Positions 34,006 to 41,039 of a DNA stretch of 60,720 nucleotides are shown here, one piece after another. The stretch comes from an uncultured Actinomycetes bacterium (GTDB lineage: Bacteria; Actinomycetota; Acidimicrobiia; Acidimicrobiales; RAAP-2), in NCBI GenBank assembly GCA_903893745.1, contig CAITNF010000008.1, positions 1 to 60,720 on the forward strand, in the 5' to 3' direction. The notes under the pieces were generated by a model. It was given only the letters and a program-made list of their open reading frames with translations, was not told the DNA's origin and did not search any database. A program made the position numbers and the translations under genes. Numbering within the stretch: position 1 is the stretch's first letter; every line of letters starts with the position of its first letter.

Positions 34006-34737
34006 CTAATGAATCGTATTCACTGTAGTCGTTACCGCCGAGATGACGACGGCAGACAAAGCCACCCAGACCCAGAAAATTCGAACCAGACGCGCTTGAT
34101 GCCATTTTTCGCCCGAAATAACACCTCGAGCTGAGCGTATAGCTAAACCAAGTCCCAAGAAAACTAGAAGTAGCAAGTGGACGAGTGCCGATCCAATTAG
34201 CACCAACATCGCCGACGAGTACGTGGTGTACGCCATTACGTGACTGTCATTTTTCGCCACAAAAATCTGAGGAATATGGCGAAGCTGAATGATGGTTAGG
34301 ACAATGGCTACCGCGACAACCGCCGTCGCCAGCCACGCCATGGCCGAGTAACTCTTGGCATTCTTCGTCGCTCGCAGTCCTCGTTCGCCAAGCCAGACCA
34401 CTCCGGCACTTATTACCGTCACCAACGTGACAAGCCAGTTAAAACCGGCCGCAAGAGGATGGACGTGAATAAGTGTGGGCGCCGGAAGTCCCGCAGCGCT
34501 ACCAGCGAGGTTTTCGTACCACCCGAACGTATGTCCTTGATAGCCCAACATATTCATCCAGTGACCGTCGGTGTTGACACCTCGCAGGTACAGGTAGGCA
34601 AACAGCAATGCGCTCAAGGTAACGAAGTCACCCCCGATAAAGAGCCACACCGCGAGGCGTTGACGTCCGTCGACTACTTCGGGTGATTCGTGATGACCCT
34701 CGTGGGCGACGTGCTGGTCGTGGGTGTCAATACTCAT
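34006..34737 (-). CDS. ctaE: cytochrome c oxidase subunit III
   Basis: A 243-aa membrane protein with five to seven predicted helices of the COX3 family: LAVWLFIGGDFVTLSALLFAYLYLRG is helix III-like, and the C-terminal half has the usual HLLLLVFLGLGLA region. The carboxylate commonly found as Glu in the W-x-F-x-x-E segment appears as Asp. It is a non-catalytic core subunit of the aa3-type oxidase in the cytoplasmic membrane. ATG overlaps coxI by 4 bp. The 3' end lies 86 bp before the pyrR start and probably contains the pyrR promoter. Confidence 0.9.
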   Translation of the reverse strand: MSIDTHDQHVAHEGHHESPEVVDGRQRLAVWLFIGGDFVTLSALLFAYLYLRGVNTDGHWMNMLGYQGHTFGWYENLAGSAAGLPAPTLIHVHPLAAGFNWLVTLVTVISAGVVWLGERGLRATKNAKSYSAMAWLATAVVAVAIVLTIIQLRHIPQIFVAKNDSHVMAYTTYSSAMLVLIGSALVHLLLLVFLGLGLAIRSARGVISGEKWHQARLVRIFWVWVALSAVVISAVTTTVNTIH

Positions 34738-36599
34738 GAGCGCACCAGTTCTTCTCGGTAGGTATAGGGATCTTCGGTAATAACCGGAAGGACGTCAAAG
34801 TTTTCCAGTGGTGGCGGTGTAGAGACCATCCACTCGAGCGAATTAGCGTGCCAAGGGTTGGGACCGGATGGGTCGCCGTGTCGCCACGAAGTAATGATTG
34901 CACCGAGCAGCACCAGCATCCCCGACATGATGGTGTACGCACCAATAGTCGAGATCAGATTCGTGTGCTCAAACAAGATGCTGTACGACGAAATTCGACG
35001 CGGCATTCCCTTCAAACCCGAGAGGAACATAGCTAGGAAGGTAACCTGCACACCGACGAAGGTCAGCCAGAATGAAATTCGCCCTTGGAATTCGTTTAAA
35101 AAACGTCCGGTCACTTTGGGGAACCAGAAGGCCAAGGCAGCAATTGCCCCGAAGAGCACCGATCCCACAAAGACGTAGTGGAAGTGGGCCGTCACGAACA
35201 TGGTGCCGTGCAACTGATTATCAATAGGGATGTCCGAAAGGTAGATACCAGTAATACCGGCGATAATGAAGTTAGCAATGAAGCCAAACATCCACACCGT
35301 GGGTAGTTTCATCCAGATATTGCCGCGCCACAATGTTCCAATCAGGACAAGGAAAAAGACGCCAGTTGGAATCGAAATGATCTCTGTCGTCAGCATGAAG
35401 GGGCCACCCAGCGTTGGCGCCCACCCCGTGGTGAACATGTGGTGAGCCCAGACCAGGATGCTCAGTCCGGCGAGTCCCACCATGCCGGCGATTGCGGTGC
35501 GATAACTAAAGACCGGTTTACGCGACATGACTGAGGCAATTTCGAATAGTGCCGCCACCGCGGGAATCAAAATTACGTAGACCTCAGGGTGGCCCATGAG
35601 CCAGAACAGGTTGGCCTGCAGCCAACCTGTGCCACCACCGGTCGCGACGAAGAAACTCGTAAAGACGGTACGGTCAAGAATCTGTAACGACTCGACCAGC
35701 AAAAAGTAGGGGAAGGCGTACAGACCTAGCGCAGCAGCAATCATTGATCCCCACACGAAGATGGGGAGTCGTTCGAGGGTCATACCCTTAGTGCGCATGG
35801 TCAAAATCGTTGCGATGGTATTAACTCCGGCAACGGTGGTTGAAACCGTGAAGACCACAATTGCTAAGGCAAAGAAATCCATGGCGACACCAACCTGGTT
35901 GGTAATTGGTGCGAGCACCACCCAACCCGAGTCCAGTGAACCTACGGCCAACGTAGTGAGCAGAAGTCCAGCTGCCGCGACCAACGTCCAAAAACTGAGC
36001 GCGTTAAGTCGCGGGAACGCCATGTCGCGGGCACCGCACATAATTGGCATCACGAAGTTGGCCCAGGGACCAGCGACTGCCACAATAAGCGCCAAAATCA
36101 TCAACATCCCGTGCACCGCAATAAAACCGTTATAGACCTGTTGATTCACGAAGTGATTACCCGGAGCAATCAAATTTGTTCGAATGGCCATAGCCAACGT
36201 GCCCCCGACGCCGAGCAACACCATGGTCATGACGATGTACTGCACGCCCACCACTTTGTGGTCGGTCGTGTATTTCCAGTATCGAGCTCGGCCTTGTCCC
36301 TCACCGGCGTAGTACAGATCGTCCGCCCGGGTGTGATCGCGACCAGCGATCCAACGCAACGGGCCATTGAACGCTCCGATGCCAATCCAGAAACCGACCG
36401 TCCAGCCGATGCCCAACCAGATTGCCGTCAAATCGCTGTAACCACTGCCAGTCGGGTCACAGACGCGCCGTGCGATGAACCAAGCCAGCCAAGCGACGAG
36501 CACTCCACCGATGAGCGCCGTTCCAAAATTCTGATGGCGTGCCAGACCTCCGGCTTTTGACGTCACCTTTGGTGCACTGTGTTCGAGAGTTGTGGTCAT
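34734..36599 (-). CDS. ctaD: cytochrome c oxidase subunit I (no K-channel lysine)
   Basis: Catalytic subunit reducing oxygen to water. It is 621 aa, about 14 helices: two extra N-terminal ones (residues ~27-45 and 58-78) before the usual TTDHK start at 111. Ligands are complete: H163 and H474 (low-spin heme), H472 (high-spin heme), H337, H386 and H387 (CuB), Y341 cross-link, E339. D-channel Asp is D192. However the K-channel motif reads PTGVFF instead of PTG(I/V)K, so the lysine is F415, and HD-TYY is HG-TMF (G465). A strong AGGAG precedes the ATG by 6 nt. Order with subunits II and III is standard. Confidence 0.93.
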   Translation of the reverse strand: MTTTLEHSAPKVTSKAGGLARHQNFGTALIGGVLVAWLAWFIARRVCDPTGSGYSDLTAIWLGIGWTVGFWIGIGAFNGPLRWIAGRDHTRADDLYYAGEGQGRARYWKYTTDHKVVGVQYIVMTMVLLGVGGTLAMAIRTNLIAPGNHFVNQQVYNGFIAVHGMLMILALIVAVAGPWANFVMPIMCGARDMAFPRLNALSFWTLVAAAGLLLTTLAVGSLDSGWVVLAPITNQVGVAMDFFALAIVVFTVSTTVAGVNTIATILTMRTKGMTLERLPIFVWGSMIAAALGLYAFPYFLLVESLQILDRTVFTSFFVATGGGTGWLQANLFWLMGHPEVYVILIPAVAALFEIASVMSRKPVFSYRTAIAGMVGLAGLSILVWAHHMFTTGWAPTLGGPFMLTTEIISIPTGVFFLVLIGTLWRGNIWMKLPTVWMFGFIANFIIAGITGIYLSDIPIDNQLHGTMFVTAHFHYVFVGSVLFGAIAALAFWFPKVTGRFLNEFQGRISFWLTFVGVQVTFLAMFLSGLKGMPRRISSYSILFEHTNLISTIGAYTIMSGMLVLLGAIITSWRHGDPSGPNPWHANSLEWMVSTPPPLENFDVLPVITEDPYTYREELVRS

Positions 36600-36608
36600 C
36601 GTGTTCTC

Positions 36609-37343
36609 CTACGCTCGAGCCGGCTGCGCGGTCAGCCAATTATTAAAATCTGTTTGAGAAAGCACATGACCTTGCGTCACCATGAACGCGTGATTAAGAC
36701 CGCAGAACTGTGTGCATCGCACATCAAATGTTCCCGTCACCGAAGGGGTCGTGTGGATCGTTGTGATGACGCCCTGGTTGGCATCGACCTGGACGCCCAT
36801 CTGGGGAATCCAGAATCCGTGGGTGACGTCATCTGAAGTGATTCGAAACTCAACTTCACGGTTCAGTGGCAGATACAACTCATTGGTCTTTACGTTCGTA
36901 CCTGCGTACTGGAATGACCAGACCCACTGCTGTCCGGTCACATTGACGACCAGAGGATTGCGTCCCGTCGACCCGTTATCTACCGCGAGCGCACCGAGTC
37001 CCCACACCAGCAGGAAAATTGTGAGCACCGTTGAAATCAACAGCCATGAGGTGATCATGACATTATTGCCTCGAAAATCAGCGCCAGCCGGTGGCACACC
37101 TTCACCTCGATACCGGAAATTTTTCAAAACGTAGAGTGTCGCTGCGTAGACTCCCGCAGCGACCGGAGCGGCTGACACACTGAAAATAACAATTGTAAGA
37201 ATGGACAGGTGCATGTCGTTGCTCATAGATCGGGGCATGAAGTGACCTGGAGCCCAAATCGATAGCGCGACCCCGAGCACCGTGAGAGCAAGCCACGTCC
37301 AGTAAAAACTCTTGATCGACTTTTTTTGACCAGTGGTTGTCAC
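36609..37343 (-). CDS. ctaC: cytochrome c oxidase subunit II (CuA)
   Basis: Accepts electrons from cytochrome c or another donor and passes them to subunit I. The 244-aa protein has hydrophobic helices at about residues 15-31, 47-72 and 96-120, then an external cupredoxin domain beginning TGQQWVWSFQY. A full CuA site is visible: H175, C210, C214, H218 and M221 (CTQFCGLNHAFM); the bridging Glu of many homologues is Gln, which uses only its backbone. No heme c motif. GTG start with GGAG 6 nt upstream; 9 bp before coxI. Confidence 0.93.
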   Translation of the reverse strand: MTTTGQKKSIKSFYWTWLALTVLGVALSIWAPGHFMPRSMSNDMHLSILTIVIFSVSAAPVAAGVYAATLYVLKNFRYRGEGVPPAGADFRGNNVMITSWLLISTVLTIFLLVWGLGALAVDNGSTGRNPLVVNVTGQQWVWSFQYAGTNVKTNELYLPLNREVEFRITSDDVTHGFWIPQMGVQVDANQGVITTIHTTPSVTGTFDVRCTQFCGLNHAFMVTQGHVLSQTDFNNWLTAQPARA

Positions 37344-37352
37344 AGATTCTCC

Positions 37353-38030
37353 CTATTCCACGTTCAGAGTGCCGGACATGTAACCGTACGTTCCCATTGC
37401 CTCACCAAACTGACCAATGCGTGAACCTCCACACGGGAACTCACAGTTCCACTGGTACACGCCCTTGCTACCAGTCTTGAAAGAAAACTTCACAACGATT
37501 GGCTTCGAATAGACGCCATCCGCAATTTTGACTGAGTTGTCAGCGTTTTCATTCGCGGGAATTGGTACCGAAACGAATAAGTGCGAGCCAGTGCCAGGAA
37601 TTCCTCGGAGCGTGAACGTGTGTCCGATGTTGTTGGGATCAACCTGGCTTACAACTTTTCCGTCGACCGTCGCGGTTCCACCAACCGTTCCAAAGACATT
37701 GGCAAAGTAGGAGTTATTGAGTGCGCCACCTGAGTCGTACTGTTTTATCGTCACCACGACCGTCGTATTTGCGGGAACTCGGAGATTCTGATTCGAGTAG
37801 GAGACCCAGTCCGGGTGTGATCCTCCAGCTTTTCCGTGCTCGCCGGCCAGCGAATCAGGAAAAACGCTGAAATTGAGGCCGCAGGTGTTCATTGCTGTTG
37901 CATCTGGAACGCAACGTAATTGAGCCTGGTGTGGCACATTACTTGCCAAGGTGAACCCAGCGAGAGCGAGCGCGCCTCCCCCGAGTAGCACTGAAGCCAG
38001 GGCGACGCCGAGTGACTTCGATCGATTCAT
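37353..38030 (-). CDS. secreted/anchored cupredoxin with incomplete CuA-like site
   Basis: A 225-aa protein with one N-terminal hydrophobic segment (residues ~8-28, signal or anchor) and a cupredoxin-like domain. It has IGHTFTL (H137) and C-E-F-P-C-G (C196, C200), like the C-x3-C-G of CuA, but the His four residues after the second Cys is missing (GSRIGQFG); M212 and M218 follow. It may bind copper differently, serve as an electron donor to the oxidase, or deliver copper. First gene of the oxidase operon. ATG at 38030 has AGGAG 5 nt upstream; the GTG at 38036 is too close to it. Confidence 0.75.
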   Translation of the reverse strand: MNRSKSLGVALASVLLGGGALALAGFTLASNVPHQAQLRCVPDATAMNTCGLNFSVFPDSLAGEHGKAGGSHPDWVSYSNQNLRVPANTTVVVTIKQYDSGGALNNSYFANVFGTVGGTATVDGKVVSQVDPNNIGHTFTLRGIPGTGSHLFVSVPIPANENADNSVKIADGVYSKPIVVKFSFKTGSKGVYQWNCEFPCGGSRIGQFGEAMGTYGYMSGTLNVE

Positions 38031-38053
38031 GCGCACTCCTTAATCAAAACTTG

Positions 38054-38067
38054 GTCTGCTCTCAGAC
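38054..38067. repeat. inverted repeat in the cupredoxin/membrane-protein divergent region
   Basis: GTCTG-CTCT-CAGAC, perfect 5-bp arms, extended by two A/T pairs after a mismatch. It lies 24 bp before the cupredoxin ATG and could be an operator or a 5'-leader hairpin. No partner regulator is seen. Confidence 0.4.
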
Positions 38068-38115
38068 AAAGAACATCCGCTGTAAGGATAGTTTCGAATT
38101 CGCATGCATTGGCGT

Positions 38116-38121
38116 TAAAGT
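38116..38121 (+). promoter_or_regulatory. -10 box of the small membrane protein gene (leaderless)
   Basis: TAAAGT, then 7 nt, then the ATG at 38129, with no Shine-Dalgarno sequence. Confidence 0.4.
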
Positions 38122-38128
38122 TGTTGTA

Positions 38129-38470
38129 ATGTCGAACGAAAATAAGAATACATTCAGAGTCCACGTAGGACTTTTCTTAGCAGAATTGATATGTATTCCG
38201 GCCTTCCTTTTCGAGATATCGCGAGCACTTGCTGGAAATACCCTGTCGTGGGCCTACGTCGTAGAGTGGCCGATTCTCGGGGTATACGCCATTTACATGT
38301 GGCGAAGGATGCTGCAGGAGGAGAAGGGCACCGACAAAAAGAGCGTGAAAGCTCAGCAACGAAGTCTCGAAGTGCCCCCGGACGCTGATCCCGACCTACT
38401 GGCGTGGAATGAGTATTTGGCGAAAATGCACGGCACTCACGACGACAATCCCGTGACGCCTCGCGACTGA
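38129..38470 (+). CDS. small two-helix membrane protein
   Basis: I do not recognise this family. The 113-aa product has two hydrophobic helices (residues ~11-28 and ~38-54), then a charged tail (RRMLQEEKGTDKKSVK, residues ~55-70) and an acidic/proline C-terminus. It lies between the oxidase operon and ctaG, divergent from the first and convergent with the second (34-bp overlap), so a role in oxidase assembly or as a small extra subunit is an inference from position. A longer frame from 38012 includes unlikely sequence over the divergent promoter. Confidence 0.7.
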   Translation: MSNENKNTFRVHVGLFLAELICIPAFLFEISRALAGNTLSWAYVVEWPILGVYAIYMWRRMLQEEKGTDKKSVKAQQRSLEVPPDADPDLLAWNEYLAKMHGTHDDNPVTPRD

Positions 38471-39297
38471 CGCTCTAACGCGGCTAGTAGCGAGCCGTCG
38501 CGAACACTGACCCGGCGCACCAGGCCCACTAGTACGGGTACCGCCCAGAAATCTCCACAGATCCAAAGGATGGCCGCGGCCAGCTGCTGCTGGTGAAATG
38601 TCCGAGCTATGGATGCACCCATGCCGGGCATCGATGACATCCCCGCCGTGTTTCCCATGGCGTTCATCACTGAATACCACGACGTCGACGTGAAGATTGA
38701 CATTGCCATGGCCAGAATCAACATTTCGAACATGGTGGCGACGACCATCACGAACTGCCATCGAACACGACACCGATTTGAGCGGGGTGCGGCACTAATT
38801 AAGAAGTGAAAGAAGAAGAGCCCCGAGAGCAGGTAGGCGGGCTCGAGCGCCCAATCCATTACCCAACGGTGCGACATTGAATAGTCAAAGACTCGAGGCG
38901 TATGCGACAACACCATTACAACATTAAGAAGTACAAGCGCCACGAGTGGATGGTTCAGCCACCTCGGCAGTACGAATTCGCGTCCTAGGTACCACCAGCG
39001 GAGCAGGCGCCGCCGCATTACGACGTCGGGTAGCCACCACAGTGATCGCAGCCACGCTGAACCGATGAGTCCCATGGGAACGAGAAACATGACCACCACG
39101 TGACTAACCATGTGCAGTGGAAGATTGGTCATGCCCTTAGTCGCAAAGGCTGAGGCTGAGGCCACCCACAGTGCAACCCACGAGCTGATGGCCAGCAGCA
39201 GCTGGAGAGTCCCTCTTCTTGATACCCAGCGGTGGCGTAACCAACTGGCCAGGGACAGAGTCACTCCGACAATGGCGAGAACACCGAGTGGGGTCAC
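38437..39297 (-). CDS. ctaG: cytochrome oxidase assembly protein, CtaG/caa3 type
   Basis: A 286-aa membrane protein with about seven helices, matching the CtaG_caa3 family: HMVSHVVVMFLVPMGLIGSAW with conserved His, HTPRVFDYSMSHRWVMDW and the ARTFHQQQLAAAILWICGDF helix with further His/Met. The family is needed for making active caa3 oxidase, probably at the CuB centre. A Met-rich loop (MGNTAGMSSMPGMG) could bind copper. It starts with GTG 2 bp after the SCO-fusion gene. Confidence 0.85.
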   Translation of the reverse strand: MTPLGVLAIVGVTLSLASWLRHRWVSRRGTLQLLLAISSWVALWVASASAFATKGMTNLPLHMVSHVVVMFLVPMGLIGSAWLRSLWWLPDVVMRRRLLRWWYLGREFVLPRWLNHPLVALVLLNVVMVLSHTPRVFDYSMSHRWVMDWALEPAYLLSGLFFFHFLISAAPRSNRCRVRWQFVMVVATMFEMLILAMAMSIFTSTSWYSVMNAMGNTAGMSSMPGMGASIARTFHQQQLAAAILWICGDFWAVPVLVGLVRRVSVRDGSLLAALERQSRGVTGLSS

Positions 39298-39299
39298 AA

Positions 39300-41039
39300 T
39301 TAGTGCACCCCCATACCGTGCAATAAATTGAGTATGAAGCCCTCAGTTGACGCGGCCCCGGCCGCACTGGCCAGTGGATCATCGGTGATGACCCAGCGAA
39401 GATGTACTTGGCCGTCAATGAGGAACACGAAATTTGAGTGCGCACTCATCTTGTCGGTCGGCTTCATAACAACCGTAATGCCATAATCTGACCAGACTTT
39501 CGAAGTTGCTGCACGACTTCCCGTCACGAAGTAAAAGTTTTGCAGCGTAGTCAGTTGACGTTGGGCAATAAACGATCGAACATCGCTCAGTGACTCGTGA
39601 TACGGATTTGCCGCGACAGCCACCACATCAATTGCTGCATTAGCTGAGAGCTCCTTGCGGACAGTTGCCACTTGTTCGGCCATCAGTGGACAGTCGGTCG
39701 AACAGCGTGGGTCGAGGAACACCAGCAGTGTCGTACGGCCTGGGTGCATGCCGAGGGTGTAGCGATGACCGTGCTGATCGGTTAGGGAGAAACTCGGCAG
39801 ATTTTTAACATCAACGGCTGAGGCCGGTCCATTATGTGCGAGGAAGAGTGAGTTCTCCGCCGACGCCACCGAAGTCCAGCCCATCAAAGCCAACGAAAAA
39901 ATCACCATCGCGCCAGCGAATGATGCCAGTACGGCTCCAGTACTACTTCGTATCTCGCGCGGTAAACGCCGCTCGAGCGGCGAACTGGTGGCGTGACCCG
40001 CCGACGCGCACCACGTCAGAGCGGCCAGGGGTACCAGCGAATTAACGTCAGTCGCGAGACCGCCAAACAGCGCCGTGTCTTGAGCAGCAATCCAAAAGAA
40101 TAGAGCCCCGCCAATGAAGGTCCACGTTCCCCAAGACCAGTTTCGCGCGGGAGTGAGCCACAGACCCACGCCAGAAATAACCAGCCAAAGGATGACGGCA
40201 ACATTGAAGCCTCCCCCCATCGTGCCAGCCAGCGTTCCCACCGCTTTGACTGAAGAGGCCAGCCAAGTCGGTTGTGGTGTCTGCGTCATTGATTGGGTCA
40301 TCGCCGTTAACGCATTGCTCGATCCACCATGCCAGAACTCACGAGACGGTAGGCACTGAAGAACAGCACCGAGTAGCGCGAGTATGCCCAGCCCCCGCAG
40401 CGTTACTTTTGAGAATCGCTGGGGAAAGTTGGTCCGTGGTCCCGCGAGCCACACCCCGGCCACCACATAAAACAATGTGGCGCCCGGCCAACCAAAGAGA
40501 ATTGAGCTGGATGAATCAAATACTCCGCCCGCACCGTTTCCGATCAGCCAAATCAGCGCAGCCCAGCCAGCTGAAAGTGCAGCCGCGATGCGACCGACAC
40601 TCCCATTCGAAATCAGTAGCAGCACACCGAGGCCGACTTGCAGCCACGCGACTCCCACCGCGAAGCCCACTGGGTGAGCATTCCAAAGATTGATCGCACT
40701 GTTCATTAAGTCGTGAAGCCAACCCGGAGTGCTGGCGGCCATTGGTCGCACTACTTGGTTCGCTAAGCCCAAGGGCATTGAGGGCTGGAACTGCAGCAGA
40801 CCGTCGACCAGCCACAAGGCGCCAAAACTCAGTCGCAGCAGCGTTCGGTTACGCGGTTCGCCCAAGCCGGTCGCAGAGAGATTAAACCCTTGCACTCGTC
40901 GCAGCAGCGTCGCCACAATCAAAATTACGAGCGACAACGCAATAATCCACGCCACGCTGGTTACGTATAATTGGCGGCGAAAAACGGAGACGACTAACGG
41001 GCTCAAAAGGCTGAAGGAGCCCGATCCCATTCTGTTCAT
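39300..41039 (-). CDS. polytopic membrane protein fused to a SCO copper-chaperone domain
   Basis: Residues 1-~390 contain about ten hydrophobic segments (e.g. 24-46, 121-144, 149-166, 182-200, 268-290, 298-320, 364-388); I do not recognise a precise family, though parts recall DoxX-like proteins. Residues ~405-579 are a SCO1/SenC thioredoxin fold with the copper motif C446-x3-C450 in FLDPRCSTDC and the partner H534 in AHSNFVFLID. SCO delivers copper to the CuA site of subunit II. An unusual 579-aa fusion, since SCO proteins usually have a single anchor. AAGGAG precedes the ATG. Lies between nusB and ctaG. Confidence 0.85.
   Translation of the reverse strand: MNRMGSGSFSLLSPLVVSVFRRQLYVTSVAWIIALSLVILIVATLLRRVQGFNLSATGLGEPRNRTLLRLSFGALWLVDGLLQFQPSMPLGLANQVVRPMAASTPGWLHDLMNSAINLWNAHPVGFAVGVAWLQVGLGVLLLISNGSVGRIAAALSAGWAALIWLIGNGAGGVFDSSSSILFGWPGATLFYVVAGVWLAGPRTNFPQRFSKVTLRGLGILALLGAVLQCLPSREFWHGGSSNALTAMTQSMTQTPQPTWLASSVKAVGTLAGTMGGGFNVAVILWLVISGVGLWLTPARNWSWGTWTFIGGALFFWIAAQDTALFGGLATDVNSLVPLAALTWCASAGHATSSPLERRLPREIRSSTGAVLASFAGAMVIFSLALMGWTSVASAENSLFLAHNGPASAVDVKNLPSFSLTDQHGHRYTLGMHPGRTTLLVFLDPRCSTDCPLMAEQVATVRKELSANAAIDVVAVAANPYHESLSDVRSFIAQRQLTTLQNFYFVTGSRAATSKVWSDYGITVVMKPTDKMSAHSNFVFLIDGQVHLRWVITDDPLASAAGAASTEGFILNLLHGMGVH

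Follow-up and report, generated by a model that had tools for sequence, protein, structure and literature searches.

A family A-related oxidase with a dismantled K-channel and a Glu-Ser pair on helix VIII as a candidate replacement

The stretch of DNA analysed here (the window) comprises 60,720 nts of contig CAITNF010000008.1 (GenBank assembly GCA_903893745.1), from an uncultured Actinomycetes bacterium, and encodes a heme-copper oxidase related to family A. The subunit I gene, coxA, occupies positions 34734..36599 on the reverse strand; the features given below lie on that strand unless noted. At the level of residues, the K-channel of this enzyme is lost and its D-channel is intact, and two residues on helix VIII, Glu406 (E406) and Ser409 (S409), recur together in two clades that lack the K-channel lysine. 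We tentatively propose, as something close to an even call, that the K-channel has been dismantled and functionally replaced by E406/S409, with protons entering via the D-channel. The channel lysine counts as essential in A-type oxidases, and why these enzymes need two proton inputs has long been asked. Natural oxidases that lack the K path and have gained an identical pair of residues in two lineages turn this question into a concrete two-residue hypothesis about a substitute route that experiments can address: a Lys-less oxidase should be rescued, or not, by a Glu and a Ser at defined places.

The coxA product (621 amino acids) matches PF00115 with an E-value of 1.5e-119. Its best NCBIfam model is TIGR02891 (subunit I), with a score of 536.3 bits that falls under the cut-off of 670.75 and makes the protein a clear but outlying family member. 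The AlphaFold2 (AF2) model has a mean predicted local distance difference test score (pLDDT) of 86.4 and a predicted template modelling score of 0.89, and its residues 107-599 superpose on subunit I of R. sphaeroides with Z 53.0 and a root-mean-square deviation (rmsd) of 1.3 over 492 residues. The six histidine ligands of the hemes and CuB (H163, H337, H386, H387, H472 and H474) and the active-site Tyr, Y341 (35577..35579), by which subunit I of a heme-copper O2 reductase is recognized, are all found, and they are invariant in two alignments of 38 and 20 rows. The entrance Asp of the D-channel, D192 (36024..36026), and its inner Glu, E339 (35583..35585), are also present, so that an earlier, sequence-only reading of the window was right about the metal ligands, the Tyr and these two acids.

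We take the channel Lys to be Lys362/Lys319, the entrance Glu of subunit II to be Glu101/Glu62, and the channel Ser to be Ser299 (R. sphaeroides and bovine numbering). The sequence-only reading had noticed that the lysine is missing from the motif PTGVFF. Alignment bears this out: phmmer pairs PTGVFF (residues 411-416) with PTGIKFF of solved mycobacterial subunit I chains, and F415 (35355..35357) therefore occupies the position of the channel Lys. Ten homologues from the same genus (71-83% identity) have F (7 cases), I (2) or V (1) at this position, and none has Lys. In five pairs with the window gene, the proportion of nonsynonymous differences (pN) is 0.12-0.16 and that of synonymous differences (pS) 0.69-0.74, with synonymous sites near saturation; coxA is under strong purifying selection. 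Since all ten homologues are K-less and pN is far below pS, a sequencing slip or a decaying gene is excluded. Two other K-channel positions, which like E406/S409 go beyond the sequence-only reading, are also replaced. F352 (35544..35546) stands at the position of the channel Ser, and I97 of subunit II (37053..37055) stands at that of the entrance Glu; the alignment to solved chains puts I97 close to the E found in subunit II of T. thermophilus caa3. In P. denitrificans, the K-channel consists of Lys354, Thr351, Ser291 and Tyr280 (PMC3084760, cited here, as are PMC8079940, PMC3431322 and PMC8239418, from parts of its text). By that A-type definition, T412 and Y341 are present while Lys and Ser are replaced by F415 and F352, and the window oxidase is therefore a K-less variant related to family A and not a full A-type enzyme.

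For comparison, we collected subunit I sequences from 212 loci as open reading frames (ORFs) of at least 100 amino acids with a blastp match to the window protein at 1e-60 or better and at least 300 aligned residues. After dropping near-duplicates by a shared core of 200 amino acids, the set has 186 rows plus the window, 187 in all, mostly from the window's own phylum and from the best 80 of at least 592 candidate loci in genome_contigs. We classified the rows by their residues. The K+ rows (122) have Lys at 415. Among the K-less rows with E406, group 1a (17 rows) is the window's kind, with 13 members from its genus (its own included), 3 from its family and 1 from its phylum; group 1b (24 rows) lacks Asp192; and group 1c (11 rows) has Ala339. 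These three groups form clade 1 (52 rows). Clade 2 (8 rows) is K-less with E406, Glu339 and Asp465. Finally, E406 is absent from five K-less rows. At the positions used as criteria (415, 406, 192 and 339, with 465 added in the case of clade 2), the counts within the groups so defined are circular; positions 409, 352, 199 and those of subunit II, for which a partner was located in 173 of the 186 rows, are independent of the definitions.

Position 415 is F, I, V or L throughout 1a, 1c and clade 2, without the polar substitute that the sequence-only reading had left open; in 1b, it is T in 2 of the 24 rows. Position 352 is S, T or N in 122/122 K+ rows and in none of the 52 clade 1 rows, and it is S or T in 8/8 of clade 2. 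The entrance position of subunit II is E in 111/111 readable K+ partners (113 were found, one with an X and one with a gap there). The partners of K-less/E406 rows retain this Glu in only 4 of 55 readable cases, distributed as 0/17 in 1a (window included), 4/23 in 1b (19 have Q), 0/10 in 1c and 0/5 readable (of 6) in clade 2; the K-less rows without E406 have it in 0/5. A proton path via subunit II, as had been suggested from the sequence, finds no support in the old entrance, since the entrance Glu is lost too. Of the old channel, all 60 K-less/E406 rows retain T412 and Y341.

The two residues that mark the K-less rows are on helix VIII (residues 395-423, 35331..35417, from the AF2 model and numbered by homology). 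E406 (35382..35384) is found in 60 of the 65 K-less rows and in 0/122 K+ rows, so that the 187 rows divide into 122 with Lys and no E406, 60 with E406 and no Lys, and 5 with neither; Lys415 and E406 never occur together. S409 (35373..35375) is found in 60/60 K-less/E406 rows and in 2/122 K+ rows. When we ask for columns with a residue at 90% or more in both clades and at 5% or less in K+, only 2 of 486 columns qualify, 406 and 409, of which 406 served to define the groups and 409 came out unprompted.

Trees were built with the helix VIII columns left out, one with 48 rows (thinned from 164) and one with 42 rows (thinned from 187, with the five exceptions omitted). The 42-row tree holds seven of the eight clade 2 rows; the eighth (L200) is partial and is placed by its residues. 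In both trees, the K-less/E406 rows fall into two clades. Clade 2 has support of 100/100 on its own branch, and it is nested among K+ A1-like rows by branches, starred in our trees, with support 99/97 (48 rows) and 98/98 (42 rows); support for its precise sister group is lower (96/88 and 94/90, respectively). The starred branches require two changes, and a single change is found in 0% of 200 bootstrap trees. Forcing the E406 rows into one clade is 72 log-likelihood units worse (approximately unbiased (AU) test, p 9.5e-5), for a group that was chosen post hoc, once the trait was known. As read from aligned residues, these trees show loss of the Lys with parallel gain of E406 and S409 in two clades. 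Both clades have in common the helix VIII stretch T-E-x-(I/V)-S-x-P-T-G, and this favours a short gene conversion, in place of parallel substitution, as the source of the motif. We find such an event very improbable. In clade 2, the K+ residues persist at 417 (F in 8/8), 419 (W in 8/8) and 352 (S/T in 8/8), so that the tract would have to be about a dozen codons long and to pass between genes that are about 40% identical in protein.

For the D-channel, we match window residues to P. denitrificans numbers by their spacing, on the assumption that this spacing holds. The A-type D-channel is made of Y35, N113, D124, N131, S134, S193, N199 and E278 (PMC3084760). In the window, these correspond to Y121, N181, D192, N199, S202, T254, N260 and E339, that is, seven of the eight are identical and S193 is replaced by T. 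Columns 121, 181, 199, 202 and 260 are canonical in 17/17 window-type rows.

In ordinary enzymes, one or two protons come through the K-channel, which runs to the redox-active Tyr, the remaining chemical protons and the pumped protons use the D-channel, and a barrier inside the site parts the end of the D-channel from the Tyr (PMC8079940). With the K path dismantled in the window enzyme and the D-channel intact, it is simplest to assume that E406/S409 allow protons to reach the site in the absence of the Lys. All protons would enter via the D-channel. E406/S409, which would sit on helix VIII roughly level with the heme a3-CuB site, would pass part of these protons through the site towards the Tyr region, crossing a barrier believed to stay shut in ordinary A-type enzymes. 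We infer that the pair would thus carry the one or two protons normally delivered by the K-channel to the Tyr. As for depth, residue 406 is 11 residues into helix VIII and residue 415 is 20 residues in. That a Glu on helix VIII can occupy such a site follows from the nitric oxide reductase (NOR) cNOR, where the cavity of the helix-VIII Glu overlaps the end of the K-pathway (PMC3431322).

Several points weigh against this proposal. The depth of E406 is judged from helix order only, and in an ideal helix a distance of nine residues puts E406 on the face opposite 415. D-channel column 254, which is S or T in 114/122 K+ rows, is V in 3 of the 17 window-type rows. The independent origins of the co-change are few, only two, and the group used for the AU test was picked after the fact. 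Five K-less rows (L058, L060, L071, L204 and L205) do without E406. Lastly, a form of the proposal in which the D-channel serves alone is not transferable unchanged to group 1b, because 1b keeps E406 with R, K or Q at 192 and E at 199.

The five rows without E406, and the indirect nature of the case for a proton relay, would also fit a structural role for E406/S409, for instance in packing the heme a3 tail or in the geometry of helix VIII, in an enzyme left slow or poorly coupled by the loss of its K-channel. We think this rather unlikely, given that S409 accompanies E406 in 60/60 rows of two clades, and that the strong purifying selection on the window gene suggests a needed, working part. 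Retention of T412 and Y341 in all 60 rows speaks for another possibility, that a cytoplasmic route has been rebuilt along a different face of helix VIII, lined by E406/S409, as a second channel from the cytoplasmic (N) side without the Lys or the subunit II Glu. This is a minor possibility in our estimate: at the 90%/5% thresholds the two clades share no further new column, and the 52 clade 1 rows have mostly hydrophobic or small residues in place of the K+ ones at columns 352, 417 and 419.

The Mg/Mn site is altered as well. The segment H464-G465-T466-M467 (35199..35210) was read from sequence as HG-T-M in place of HD-T-Y, and indeed G465 and M467 align with the D and Y of solved mycobacterial chains. 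K+ rows have D at 465 in 108/122 cases and Y at 467 in 122/122. Column 465 is G in 41/41 rows of 1a and 1b together and D in 11/11 of 1c; clade 2 has D465, though D465 was used to define it. That the Mg-site loss and the Lys loss are the same event is ruled out, as group 1c keeps D465. In subunit II, Q212 (36708..36710) stands at what is presumably the position of the Mg-site Glu, and the residue there is E in 98/113 K+ partners.

The change of D465 to G in 1a and 1b is one of the observations in favour of an alternative in which E406 receives its protons from the outer (P) side, along the lines suggested for cNOR; some of the chemical protons would then not cross the membrane, and the energy yield would be lower. 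Helix IX also bears acids in its P-side part (D456 in 52/52 of clade 1, D450 in 7/8 of clade 2), and the cNOR structure suggested a path via a Thr, a Ser and the helix-VIII Glu (PMC3431322). We hold P-side loading to be doubtful. The acid positions differ between the two clades, the simulation in PMC3431322 rated the P-side path of cNOR itself less likely, and according to PMC8079940 a pumping oxidase has to keep uptake from the P side blocked. Further, the NOR Glu is 21 residues after the HH (PMC3084760) and E406 is 19 after it; hhalign comparison with a single qNOR (L213) needs gaps to bring E406 opposite the qNOR Glu, at probabilities of 1.6% and 16.6%. The aligned sequences do not establish that E406 stands at the position of the NOR helix-VIII Glu.

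Group 1b presents a special case. Its position 192, that of the D-channel Asp, is R in 21, K in 2 and Q in 1 of the 24 rows, and N199 is replaced by E in 24/24; E339 and E406 are retained. Judging by aligned residues, the entrance residues of both textbook channels are lost in this group, which would sharpen the question of where protons enter. A broader reading, to which we give little credence, is that these are repeatedly evolved O2 reductases without a K-channel, in which a Glu-Ser pair takes the place of the Lys, and that some members (1b) may take protons from the outer face as proposed for cNOR. Other genomes of the window's genus have a K-less oxidase of the 1b type about 40% identical to the window's, often in the same chromosomal slot (e.g. 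L015, L173-L182). Of ten 1b loci, five are located, as the window operon is, between nusB/efp (or aro) and pyrR/pyrB genes, two show one flank with the other cut off, and three show neither (L174, L176 and L182), of which L174 seems to be elsewhere. Among ten 1a loci, nine show both flanks and one shows a single flank.

The N-terminal end of subunit I is long, as the sequence-only reading had also seen, with 110 residues before T111 of the TTDHK motif. The AF2 model places here two extra helices, residues 25-47 (36459..36527, 10-residue blocks with pLDDT 82-96) and residues 56-74 (36378..36434, pLDDT 77-96). A crude count based on hydropathy gives exactly two extra segments at the N-terminal end for 26/122 K+ rows and two or more for 29/122 (three or four in 3); clade 1 has one to three in 52/52 (only one in 8), and clade 2 has none in 8/8. 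The extra helices are thus a trait apart from the Lys loss, because K+ rows with two of them exist and clade 2, where the Lys was lost separately, has none. As a general substitute proton path they are out, on the same counts. Of the suggestion of a variant class with a different second proton route, what stands is that K-channel residues are gone, that this is a variant class, and that a substitute route is likely; its link to the extra helices is unsupported. The class is not wholly new. As far as the parts of PMC8239418 cited here go, a basal '2TM' COX1 clade with two extra N-terminal transmembrane helices is described there, K-channel variants are mapped onto archaeal family A oxidases, and an archaeal origin, which is rejected, would demand seven independent K-channel losses. 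Compared at the level of features only, the window protein has the two extra N-terminal helices of the '2TM' clade in its AF2 model, and it shares with that clade a nearby caa3_CtaG gene and K-channel variation within family A; it differs in that two extra helices and Lys loss are separable in our survey. For the E406/S409 replacement of the K-channel, a literature search at the level of titles and abstracts, which did not cover the supplementary classification of PMC8239418, found no report.

With canonical A1-type aa3/caa3 oxidases (mycobacterial, R. sphaeroides, T. thermophilus caa3), the window enzyme shares the fold, the metal ligands, the Tyr, the D-channel with its inner Glu and a CuA subunit II; it differs in the replaced K-channel Lys, Ser and subunit II Glu, in the altered Mg-site segment, and in having E406/S409. 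The group 1c relatives resemble the A2 type in reading SHPAVY instead of GHPEVY, whereas the window protein itself has the A1-like GHPEVY. B-type and C-type oxidases are similar in that their K-like channel has no Lys, and different in that the portion of PMC3084760 cited here lists the D-channel as absent in both. With cNOR and qNOR, the likeness is a helix VIII Glu and no channel Lys; the window enzyme has a Tyr for the helix-VI Glu, a CuA subunit II, and its helix VIII Glu at HH+19 instead of HH+21. Neither NOR motif of PMC3084760 is found: for H-X-(Arom)-X-E the window has HPEVY, with Tyr in place of Glu, and for H-H-X-(Arom)-(Arom)-X17-E it has HHMFT, with E at +19 and not +21. Tyr341 and the failed NOR motifs disfavour an NO reductase function. 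In another K-less type (L058:7854-9596, L060:3717-5402 and L071:7953-9560, from bacterium GS5, a beta proteobacterium and Rhodoferax), PTGxK becomes PLAV(M/L), with Lys replaced by M or L, W283 by H and the subunit II entrance Glu by Q; S409 is kept and E406 is absent. In L204:1231-3111 and L205:953-2833, Lys is replaced by Q and IPTG by IPS(G/A), with neither E406 nor S409.

The oxidase genes form a same-strand row of coxA, coxB, and the subunit III-like, cupredoxin-like, caa3_ctaG and SCO1-fusion genes. The coxB product, subunit II (36609..37343), matches PF00116 (E-value 1.2e-15), and it has the CuA ligand pattern H..CxxxCxxxHxxM, with H175 in DDVTHGFWIP and the remaining ligands in CTQFCGLNHAFM, as the alignment to solved chains also indicates. 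The membrane protein at 34006..34737, beside coxA, has homologues in 1a loci; we take it to be subunit III-like from its position and a presumed resemblance. It has no Pfam or NCBIfam match and no blastp homologue in the ten 1b loci. The cupredoxin-like protein (37353..38036) matches nothing in Pfam or NCBIfam; the helix predicted at its N-terminal end would be an anchor or a signal. Its gene is conserved beside coxB, adjoining it in 10/10 1a and 8/10 1b loci. H139, C198-x3-C202, M214 and M220 are invariant in 29 rows (with the window's own counted twice). Its AF2 model (pLDDT 79.3) has as its best solved match nitrosocyanin (Z 9.6, rmsd 2.1, 95 residues), and among the 50 entries shown the predicted fold resembles nitrosocyanin and rusticyanin (Z 8.2-9.6). 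This protein is possibly an electron donor or an extra copper subunit. Next come a caa3_CtaG assembly factor (38437..39297, PF09678, E-value 7.3e-24) and a gene (39300..41039) in which a hydrophobic N-terminal part with no Pfam match is fused to a SCO1/SenC domain (PF02630, E-value 2.9e-12 over residues 416-544).

COX1 is matched twice in the genome (1.66 Mb, 96.4% complete), by the window gene and, on a different contig, by a K+ oxidase. Further matches are two to heme A synthase within one frame of 311 amino acids, two to cytochrome c within one frame of 329 amino acids (from a PF00034 search only), and a bc-type cytochrome b as well as a second, weak cytochrome b match holding a stop. A small ORF at 38012-38470 on the forward strand, divergent to the operon and with no Pfam or NCBIfam match, has a homologue at the same place in 10/10 1a loci (47-67% identity), and all ten 1b loci carry one or more homologous ORFs close to the oxidase genes (32-53%). 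The weak cytochrome b-like match with one stop codon (contig C1 221649-223465; L215, L216, L218) adjoins a heme A synthase-like gene.

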